43,394 nt of DNA from Bacteroidota bacterium (GTDB taxonomy: Bacteria; Bacteroidota; Bacteroidia; Flavobacteriales_D; Sanyastnellaceae): assembly GCA_027624855.1 (NCBI GenBank), contig JAQBTQ010000022.1, positions 1-43,394 on the forward strand, in the 5' to 3' direction. Position 1 is the stretch's first letter, and every line of letters begins with the position of its first letter. The notes beneath the pieces were generated by a model, which made no database searches, was not told the DNA's origin, and saw nothing but the letters and a program-made list of their open reading frames with translations. Of the stretch, positions 40,968 to 43,394 are shown piece after piece. The position numbers and the translations under genes are program-made.

Positions 40968-41040
40968 GCGAGAATAGCTCAGTTGGTAGAGCACAACCTT
41001 GCCAAGGTTGGGGTCGCGAGTTCGAGTCTCGTTTCTCGCT
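40968..41040 (+). tRNA. tRNA-Gly (anticodon GCC)
   Basis: Full cloverleaf of 73 bases. The acceptor stem is GCGAGAA paired with TTCTCGC (41033-41039), and the discriminator base is T at 41040. The D arm is GCTC/GAGC, the anticodon stem CAACC/GGTTG has loop TTGCCAA with anticodon GCC, reading GGC and GGU, and the T arm is GCGAG TTCGAGT CTCGT. CCA is not encoded. A consensus promoter and a terminator enclose it, so it is a stand-alone transcription unit. Confidence 0.97.
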
Positions 41041-41045
41041 CAACG

Positions 41046-41645: not shown

Positions 41646-42089
41646 TTAGCTCATGGCTACAGCGAAGATACCGAAGAGTATCATAGCGAGGAAGTAAAGA
41701 ACTGGAACAATTACAAAGAATATTAGTTGGCTTATTCCTACAAATTGAAAATAATACTTCAGCTGCTCTATACCATCAGTATGATCTTCATGCCTGTTTG
41801 TTTTCAATGCCATTCTAGATTTTCGAGAAAATTGAACAAGCTTAAAACTAGGGTATGCGCTTACAAGGCCTAGAATGAAATAAAACAATGCAATGAAACC
41901 ACTGGCAAAAGGACCAGCAGGAACAACTAATACAGCAAGTGAGGCAATAATCATAAACCCAGAACCAATCAAACCCAGAATACCAATCAATAAAGACCAA
42001 TACACCATGATATCCAGGGCGCTTTTGAATCGGTCATTCACTGCCAAATCTTTCTCAGACTCTTTTTCGAAATCCACTAATTCTGTCAT
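41646..42089 (-). CDS. Small AT-rich membrane protein, unknown function
   Basis: Protein of 147 residues from the ATG at 42089 (MTELVDFEKESEKDLAVN); a frame from 42158 would add 23 residues. About four hydrophobic helices are visible: MVYWSLLIGILGLIGSGFMI, a proline-containing AVLVVPAGPFASGFIALFYF, YPSFKLVQFS border, and VGISQLIFFVIVPVLYFLAM. The segment EQLKYYFQFVGI resembles DUF5362-type proteins of Bacteroidota; this is a memory-based suggestion. Its base composition is unusually AT-rich (27% and 37% G+C in two sampled lines). No promoter was recognised. Confidence 0.7.
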   Translation of the reverse strand: MTELVDFEKESEKDLAVNDRFKSALDIMVYWSLLIGILGLIGSGFMIIASLAVLVVPAGPFASGFIALFYFILGLVSAYPSFKLVQFSRKSRMALKTNRHEDHTDGIEQLKYYFQFVGISQLIFFVIVPVLYFLAMILFGIFAVAMS

Positions 42090-42268
42090 TTGACTTTGTT
42101 TTGGTAAAACTTTTTTCCGACTTGTAAACGGGAAAATAAGGGAAAAATTTCTAGTCAACCTACTATTTGATAGATCTATTTCAAATAACTACGCTATTCA
42201 TCAATGATTTTGAAAACACGCATTTCACGGCATAATCCCTACCTTGACGATTCACCCAATCGTCTCCT

Positions 42269-43003
42269 ATGCGTTTTTCTGCCTTTTCGCAATCTTCTTT
42301 TCTAAGCTTTCTGACCGGTCTATTGCTGCTCTCTAGTTGCAGCGTTCAGAACCATCAGTTTCTCGCTGGTTTTGAAGTGGCAACGGCTACTCAGCAGCCC
42401 GCTGACCTTGTTTCGCAGGAGTTCGAACCCGTTGAATCCAGTTTCAATCAATTTGCCCCGCTATGCATCAAATCGACCAAATCGGTCAGCAGCGAGGCTC
42501 ACGAATCACAAGTCAAAGCCGAGTCCCCATTGGAACTGAAAGCGATCCCGACGATCAAGAATAGAAGTCCAAAAACTCCAAACGATGTTGCGTCGAATGC
42601 AGTCACAGTTGAGCAACTTGAAATCAGAACTCCAAAGAACACTGCTGAGACCCAACAAGCAGCCATAGCTGATCCTAAACCTGATTTGGAAGTGCTGAGA
42701 AGGAAAGCTGCTTTCAAGGGGTTCATGCGCTTGTTCTTGGCTCTTTTATTGGGAACATTATTTATTTTCTTGGATCCGATGTTGGGGCTGGGAGTAAGCA
42801 TAATCATTTTTATGCTGCTCATCTCTGCATTAAAATGGCGCTCCATTTCAAGAAGCTCCGACCGTTTGATCAAATGGTGGGAGGAAAAACAAGAAAGAAA
42901 AAACAAGAAGTTTGTTCAAAAGATACCCTCCTACTTAAAATGGCTCATTGCCATCCCCATATCGGTTTTCATGTTCTTGGTGTTTTTCCTTGGGCAACTT
43001 TAA
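42269..43003 (+). CDS. Putative lipoprotein with C-terminal membrane helices, tandem copy 1
   Basis: Unrecognised protein of 244 residues. It has a lipoprotein signal (MRFSAFSQSSFLSFLTGLLL, lipobox LSSC with Cys24), then a long hydrophilic, Ser/Thr/Glu/Pro-rich linker (about 25-145), two closely spaced hydrophobic helices (about 152-187, KGFMRLFLALLLGTLFIFLD then PMLGLGVSIIIFMLLISALK), a basic loop (DRLIKWWEEKQERKNKKF) and a last helix (about 222-243). A lipid anchor followed by membrane helices is an unusual layout. A second copy starts 780 bases further on. No promoter or partner gene points to a role. Confidence 0.8.
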   Translation: MRFSAFSQSSFLSFLTGLLLLSSCSVQNHQFLAGFEVATATQQPADLVSQEFEPVESSFNQFAPLCIKSTKSVSSEAHESQVKAESPLELKAIPTIKNRSPKTPNDVASNAVTVEQLEIRTPKNTAETQQAAIADPKPDLEVLRRKAAFKGFMRLFLALLLGTLFIFLDPMLGLGVSIIIFMLLISALKWRSISRSSDRLIKWWEEKQERKNKKFVQKIPSYLKWLIAIPISVFMFLVFFLGQL

Positions 43004-43048
43004 TCTAATTCTTAAACAAACAACTAACTTATTACCTAATCGCCTGTC

Positions 43049-43394
43049 ATGCGTATTTCTGCCCTATCGCAATCTTCTTTTCTCTGCTTTCTGACCGGTT
43101 TAATGCTGCTTTCGAGTTGCAGCGTTCAGAACCATCAGTTTCTCGCTGGTTTTGAAGTTGCAACCGCTACCCAGCAGCCCGCTGAACCTGTTTCAAAGGA
43201 GTTTGAACCCATTGAATCCACTTTCCATCAAGCGGCTCCGCCCTCCATCAAATCAACCAAATCGGTGAGCAGCGAGGGTCAGGACTCACCAGGAAAAGCC
43301 GGGTCCCCATTGGAACTGAAAGCGATTCAAATAATAAAGAATCGAAGTCCAAAAACTCCAAACGACGTTAAGTCCAATGCAGTCGCAGTGGAGC
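43049..43394 (+). CDS. Putative lipoprotein, tandem copy 2, cut by window edge
   Basis: The first 115 codons are visible from the ATG at 43049 (MRISALSQSSFLCFLTGLML). It aligns with copy 1 without gaps; by eye about 80% of residues agree. The region just after the lipobox, SVQNHQFLAGFEVATATQQP, is identical in both, while the linker has diverged (QEFEPVESSFNQFAP against KEFEPIESTFHQAAP). The 16 bases before each start are also alike. The rest lies beyond the window. Confidence 0.8.
   Translation, partial: MRISALSQSSFLCFLTGLMLLSSCSVQNHQFLAGFEVATATQQPAEPVSKEFEPIESTFHQAAPPSIKSTKSVSSEGQDSPGKAGSPLELKAIQIIKNRSPKTPNDVKSNAVAVE

Follow-up and report, generated by a model that had tools for sequence, protein, structure and literature searches.

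What are the two neighboring lipoprotein genes at the end of this contig, and why would a protein that begins with a presumably lipidated cysteine end in membrane helices? The window, that is, the whole stretch of DNA analyzed here, is the entire contig C13 of genome G000 (43394 bases) and stops inside the second gene, of which only 361 bases are visible. An earlier note had described the genes as a tandem pair that fits no known family and had suspected variable surface or partner-binding proteins. The relevant features are as follows.

40968-41041: tRNA-Gly, near the contig end.
41206..41637, plus strand: cyclophilin gene (PF00160, E 1.3e-40), a syntenic landmark for the family gene within the genus.
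42254..42614, plus strand: repeat unit, first copy (comparable part), ungapped match to 43034-43394.
42269..43003, plus strand: copy 1 lipoprotein gene, a complete ORF of 244 aa with a syntenic homologue, L003 (BLASTP E 6e-12).
42269..42337, plus strand: predicted signal peptide of copy 1 with the lipobox LSS-C at its end; residues 8-26 are a helix in the structural model.
42338..42385, plus strand: presumably lipidated Cys with the 16-residue tag of copy 1, a diverged family form, identical in copy 2 and the most deviant of 112 tags.
42386..42685, plus strand: predicted disordered linker of copy 1 (pLDDT <50 across most of residues 35-132).
42686..42784, plus strand: predicted membrane helix 1, residues 140-172 (AlphaFold, pLDDT ~75-80).
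42791..42892, plus strand: predicted membrane helix 2, which continues into a basic segment, residues 175-208 (AlphaFold; 11 K/R in residues 190-224).
42932..42997, plus strand: predicted membrane helix 3, residues 222-243 (AlphaFold).
43034..43394, plus strand: second copy of the repeat unit, truncated where the contig ends, ungapped match to 42254-42614.
43049..43394, plus strand: copy 2, same family, 115 codons visible, an ORF to 43393 that is open at the contig end.

The two ORFs lie head-to-tail, with 45 bases between the stop codon of copy 1 and the start of copy 2. Their repeat units start 780 bases apart and agree without gaps at 307 of 361 bases, which bears out the tandem pair of the earlier note. 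The 780-base unit that it described as shared, upstream bases included, is right in its spacing, but the match is seen over 361 bases; identity starts 15 bases 5' of the ATG, and because the preceding 40 bases agree at only 13 positions, little upstream DNA is common to both copies. The 115 codons that the copies share give a dN/dS of 0.29. Residues 24-43, the 20 codons from the lipobox Cys, carry no nonsynonymous and three synonymous changes, so the protein is identical there in both copies, and the signal peptide carries four nonsynonymous changes in 23 codons. The linker has diverged, as claimed, by amino-acid changes without gaps, with about 22 nonsynonymous and 15 synonymous changes in 72 codons and a dN/dS of 0.38. 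The contrast between tag and linker lies in the nonsynonymous changes (Fisher p 0.005) and is missing from the synonymous ones (p 0.74), and the tag is therefore kept by selection at the protein level. The linker of this pair is relaxed and on average not diversifying: the dN/dS comparison of linker and anchor that the note had proposed points, at 0.29 overall and 0.38 in the linker, to constraint. The visible part of copy 2 contains no stop and no gap, is constrained, and gives no sign of a pseudogene. When the proteins of the same assembly were searched with copy 1 (E ≤10), only the two copies and a paralogue on contig C5 were returned, and no further piece of copy 2.

The layout proposed earlier, a lipidated Cys followed by a disordered linker, helices and a basic loop, is supported for copy 1 at moderate confidence; the helices of copy 2 fall past the contig end. 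The AlphaFold model of copy 1, built on a thin alignment of 21 rows, has a mean pLDDT of 61 and a pTM of 0.34; its helices are mostly at pLDDT 70-80, and residues 35-132 are below 50 almost throughout. Lipidation of the Cys is presumed, the lipobox being read from the sequence alone. From this Cys to the first membrane segment there are about 124 residues, a distance inside the family range of about 100-140.

No name could be given to the protein. Pfam, NCBIfam, PHROGs, PADLOC and the PDB sequences yielded no credible match to it. Against Pfam, the sole matches of copy 1 were 8xMP (E 0.038) and TctB (E 0.084), neither of which reaches its cut-off, and the Pmp3, TM2 and DUF4190 models did not match it; PHROGs gave phrog_7742 at E 0.0057. 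A match to Plasmodium PYST-D (E 0.0032) was rejected, as it is just 18 residues long and far under its own cut-off. Neither Pfam nor NCBIfam holds a model for the N-terminal part of the family described below. In the open-access literature, searched in full text and judged by title and the start of the abstract, no description of the family was found, and the tag strings and a DUF4190 lipoprotein appeared nowhere.

Relatives of the window protein nevertheless exist. A protein search of 100 related genomes gave two real homologues beyond the genome's own copies, L003 in the genus mate G017 and L005 in G082. L003 occupies the same place behind the cyclophilin gene and matches copy 1 at E 5.3e-12 (25% over query residues 6-238); the direct BLASTP alignment covers 221 columns and spans tag, linker and module. 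Its tag is near-canonical, and it scores E 1e-12 against a profile built without L003, L035 and the window rows. L005, the second weak match that was followed, is also a family member; L004, a weak match of the same search, was rejected because it has two stops and the lipoprotein ORF is absent there. A third paralogue in the window's own genome, L035 (217 aa, contig C5), came from a weaker own-genome search. The N-ends of these homologues and of the paralogue have a common motif behind the lipobox, which was the source of the first profile, A2. Both A2 and the wider A5 include window rows, and their E-values for the window are thus circular. With the profile that leaves out the window, L035 and L003 rows as the clean test, neither window copy is recovered (copy 2 at E 0.73, copy 1 unlisted at E 10). 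The membership of the window genes therefore rests on the homologue L003; judged by these alignments, they very probably belong to the tagged lipoprotein family. The profile search for distant homologues suggested by the earlier note led on from these homologues to a family of 117 members. Its view that the protein has no named family is confirmed for the curated libraries, but the wider statement that the layout fits no family has to be amended: the proteins belong to a large, unnamed, lineage-specific family that carries recognizable Pfam modules in other members.

The site behind the cyclophilin gene was read in 17 other genomes, 16 of the genus and one of the family. It holds a family gene in G002, G016 and G017 and a shortened ORF with the tag in G009 (4/17); the remaining 13 sites, some with little contig left, showed no ORF of the family that reaches 110 aa. 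In the window, a 147-aa multi-helix membrane ORF (41646-42089, minus strand) without a credible family match separates copy 1 from the cyclophilin gene. The G017 contig C21 stops 13 bases past L003, and the window contig stops inside copy 2; that contigs break at the family gene in both genomes is suggestive, though only that, of repeat-like behavior.

Family members are built from a lipobox, a tag, a linker of about 120 residues without sequence conservation and an exchangeable C-terminal module, which may be Pmp3, TM2, DUF4190 or unnamed. The tag consensus is C-[ST]-[IVM]-[EQ]-K-R-x-[YHL]-x-x-G-[YFW]-H-[VI]-E-W. In the fetched loci there are 117 distinct members, 112 of them at E <1e-5 (profile A2, then the wider A5). 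Counted over the 117, the tag columns hold T/S (+1) in 104, K (+4) in 114, R (+5) in 107, G (+10) in 114, H (+12) in 102, E (+14) in 89 and W (+15) in 87. The Cys is kept in 117/117, partly through profile selection, and residue -1 is S, G or A in 64/64; this 64-member set comes from a pattern that fixed the Cys, K/N at +4 and G at +10, while the family counts come from the profile-based set. In a second tag form, the tag lies about 10 residues farther from the Cys.

As far as searched, the family is restricted to a single Bacteroidota order. When a collection of 84,980 species was scanned with a degenerate DNA version of the tag, for which well below one match is expected by chance (bit count), 66 stretches were found. 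The record titles of 62 name Bacteroidota (Flavobacteriales, Crocinitomicaceae, Fluviicola, Cryomorphaceae and others); two of the other four read plain 'bacterium' and two 'Saccharospirillaceae'. Some titles of metagenome-assembled genomes (Saccharospirillaceae; 'Chryseobacterium gleum', CAMCVP010000001.1), at L170, L175 and L195, do not fit the family range, and some of them look wrong. Profile scans scored at most 19 (first phylum scan) or 24-25 candidates per genome and thus give lower bounds: in the window's order, the first tag form is present in at least 124 of 299 genomes and the second in at least 82 of 298, with 26 genomes in both lists and a union of at least 180. Within the genus, 14 of 22 genomes carry the first form. 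Across the phylum, this form was found in 10/395 genomes at E 1e-3, and stronger than 1e-5 only in G000 and G068, both of the order; L127, L128 and L132, three of the eight weaker matches, look like unrelated lipoproteins and were dropped from the strong set. The second form was found in 1/296 genomes of the phylum, a member of the window's own taxonomic family.

Adjacent copies on the same strand recur in the family, among the matches listed with four in contigs G072:C320 and G061:C131, three in G688:C5 and two in several others. In 13 adjacent pairs that were read, tag identity is 56-100%. The linkers of 11 pairs could be compared; ten are at 16-30% identity and the window pair is at 74%, which marks the latter as a recent duplication in an often-tandem family.

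Modules were assigned in two ways. Pfam at E 0.01 applied to 59 members gave Pmp3 in nine, DUF4190 in nine and TM2 in two, and local clustering of 98 complete members gave 14 Pmp3, 17 TM2, 18 DUF4190 and 49 other; spot checks of the module agree in 10/10, one DUF4190 match being below the curated cut-off. The module of the window falls in the class 'other' and is shared by L003. The 98 members are the 112 strong ones minus 11 cut by the sequence end and three without a membrane segment, the segments being hydropathy calls, not those of a trained predictor. In this set the first membrane segment follows the Cys at a median distance of 124.5 residues (quartiles 119-133, minimum 101, maximum 213), which lies at 100-140 in 79/98, with medians of 123 for Pmp3, 128 for TM2, 136.5 for DUF4190 and 123 for other modules. 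Linkers of random pairs are 22.1% identical versus 21.5% after shuffling, and the corresponding values are 52% for the tag and 29% for the module. Because these statistics ignore relatedness, the similar linker lengths could reflect common descent and not selection. Two kinds of departure from the usual build were seen: the tagged lipoprotein L180 (6055, plus strand) has a mature part of 330 aa in which no membrane segment was found, and in L077, L083, L085, L086, L110 and L115 the linker seems lengthened by a small extra domain (D-G ... I-x-Y-x-x-C, by eye).

As a control, the analysis was started from the module, Pmp3 matches being picked without regard to the tag in 100 genomes of the order. 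The 62 matches lie in open frames of ≤80 aa (22) or ≥172 aa (40), with none between. At 60 loci that were read there are 32 distinct Pmp3 proteins, of which nine are bare, one is intermediate and 22 are extended by >100 residues. The bare proteins are, unlike family members, without lipobox, tag and long linker, whereas the extended ones have a lipobox (by pattern) in 22/22 and the tag in 18/22. In the extended tagged proteins the tag-to-module distance is 113-131 residues (sd 5.1), whereas the Cys-to-tag distance is 3, 8 or 13. The four untagged ones are L248, L249, L252 and L253. Three of these (L248, L249 and L252, in G499, G521 and G529) are Pmp3 lipoproteins of about 200-220 aa whose N-end reads C-[AS]-Q-L-R-Y-T-D-Y-G-K-P, possibly a third tag form. 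Among 31 TM2 proteins, eight are bare, 15 intermediate and eight extended; 7/8 extended ones carry lipobox and tag, and their tag-to-module distance is looser, at 119-182 (n=7).

The two tag forms bear on where the distance is counted from. All 38 members of the A6 (shifted) form were compared with the 82 of 103 A5-form members that have the usual Cys-to-KR spacing, after 45 (A5) and 6 (A6) rows that misfit the pattern, some of them possibly duplicates, and 3 and 1 members without a membrane segment had been dropped. From the tag (KR) to the membrane, the median is 124 in shifted (n=38) and 121 in unshifted members (n=82; p 0.32), whereas the distance from Cys to membrane differs between the forms (p 5e-6). 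This suggests that the tag is the point from which the set distance is measured.

Known systems resemble the family in part only. Pmp3/YqaE (PF01679), TM2 (PF05154) and DUF4190 (PF13828) are the C-terminal modules of other members, and the window module matches none of them; to our knowledge, the function of these bacterial modules is little understood. In E. coli, the outer-membrane lipoproteins NlpE, RcsF and Pal likewise have a lipidated Cys followed by an unstructured linker, but the family linker is of nearly constant length. We know of no multi-helix membrane module at the end of these three proteins. Disordered linkers are reported to let NlpE reach across the periplasm and to thread RcsF through outer-membrane proteins (PMC12846838). 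Surface-exported (LES) lipoproteins of Bacteroidetes also carry a lipobox and a signal directly behind the Cys; that signal is described as acidic, K-(D/E)2 or Q-A-(D/E)2 (PMC5080379), and the family positions are neutral to basic instead. An acidic pair at +2 to +6 was found in 0/112 strong members, both window copies included, and these positions carry a net charge of 0 to +2.

Within the searched range, then, these are members of a real, unnamed, order-restricted family of modular lipoproteins, and a linker of fixed length with exchangeable modules suggests a measuring strap within the cell envelope. The explanation that we tentatively prefer, and the most likely of several readings, is a modular lipoprotein tether. 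The protein would be exported and lipidated, as its lipobox implies; the tag would be held at the outer membrane or wall; the C-terminal module would be placed in the inner membrane; and the linker would act as a flexible strap of set length that ties the membrane module to the layer above. Whether some tether with a length constraint operates at all we consider evenly balanced, and a position of the lipid end in the outer membrane is somewhat doubtful. Unstructured linkers are reported to aid Lol-dependent extraction of lipoproteins in E. coli (PMC12846838, PMC11671585) and LolA and LolB are reported to be present in Bacteroidota (PMC11885536). If the tether is real, Pmp3, TM2 and DUF4190 modules of one order are joined, at a fixed distance, to an address tag that they have in common; this would offer a handle on the targets of the modules and a simple system in which to study the sorting of lipoproteins with membrane helices.

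The distribution of charge conflicts with the export of the linker. Of the three-helix members, 36/40 have the positive charge of the module on the linker side (two opposite, two ties); their second loop, between helices 2 and 3, averages 6.4 K/R and their first loop 0.6. In two-helix members the charge lies on the linker side in 30/48, on the opposite side in 17 and is tied in one, and the other 11 members split 6 and 5. The bias is thus pronounced for three-helix modules and weak or inconsistent for those with two helices, and the basic segment of the window likewise falls on the linker side. A linker on the outside would mean that the basic segment joining helices 2 and 3 is outside too, whereas the positive-inside rule together with the linker-side charge would make the linker cytoplasmic. 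Either the rule does not hold for these modules or the topology differs from the lipobox prediction. An inverted topology, with a cytoplasmic linker, a module in its usual N-in orientation and an N-terminal segment that is not a working lipoprotein signal, would account for the charge pattern in 36/40 and 30/48 members; it is improbable in view of the strongly kept lipobox (S/G/A at -1 in 64/64; Cys in 117/117, partly by selection), which moreover appears by pattern in 22/22 extended Pmp3 proteins selected by module. The orientation of the module would also matter less if the module were cleaved after insertion to leave a soluble lipidated tag-linker peptide as the product; the free combination of tags and modules speaks for this. 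We regard it as a distant prospect, since a conserved site is absent from a linker at shuffled identity, and known modules such as Pmp3 and TM2 remain conserved far beyond their cut-offs (7/7 spot checks), which would be needless for a discarded tail.

Another arrangement would leave both ends in the inner membrane, the lipid anchor being retained, the periplasmic linker looping back and the tag recruiting a periplasmic or inner-membrane partner. A helical module such as the one modeled by AlphaFold would be expected in the inner membrane, and lipid extraction of a protein held by helices would not be needed. We know of no rule that excludes such retention. A paper on Lol in Bacteroidota (PMC11885536) uses neither 'retention' nor 'sorting signal' in its main text. 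We nevertheless consider this arrangement unlikely, as it gives no reason for the lower limit near 100 residues or for the near-constant distance from tag to membrane. The variable surface or partner-binding family of the earlier note keeps its observation that the linker diverges more than the tag: tandem copies with an identical tag and a diverged linker, with a nonsynonymous excess in the latter (Fisher p 0.005), are what it would predict. Diversifying selection and surface export did not follow, given the linker dN/dS of 0.38 and a surface-export signal in 0/112 members, and three helices would hold the protein in the inner membrane; such a family is thus very unlikely.

The canonical K-R at +4/+5, H at +12 and E-W at +14/+15 are absent from the window tags, which have N-H, E and A-T instead. 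Among the 112 tags, the three from G000 deviate most, with scores of 4.4, 4.4 and 14.1 against 20.9 for the next and a median of 47.7, on frequencies that leave out the G000 rows and so somewhat lower these scores relative to members with relatives present. L035 matches the non-circular profile weakly (E 0.0074), and its full-length identity to its likely G017 orthologue, L103, is 37% (E 3e-41). Copy 1 and L035 have 11/16 tag residues in common with each other but only 5/16 and 6/16, respectively, with their likely G017 orthologues; same-module pairs across genomes of the genus (n=26, those two included) agree at a mean of 11.7/16. Two genes on different contigs and with different modules have therefore changed their tags in the same direction. 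That the three tags moved to a common new form would be expected if one partner reads the tag, and the shared change fits such a partner. A fuller proposal, in which the tag is the address for a dedicated envelope partner, tag and linker are a ruler for different inner-membrane modules, and partner and tags have changed together in the window's species, would amount to a lineage-specific trans-envelope tethering system with interchangeable cargo and is speculative and rather unlikely as a whole; the parallel change would still be a concrete route to the partner. It is a single case, because tags of the same genome with different modules (10.9/16, nine pairs) are across the genus not closer than same-module tags of different genomes, pairs that share neither being at 9.2/16 (174 pairs). 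Recent gene conversion is an unlikely cause of the alike G000 tags, since six of the 11 tag residues shared by copy 1 and L035 are encoded by different codons; older events are possible.
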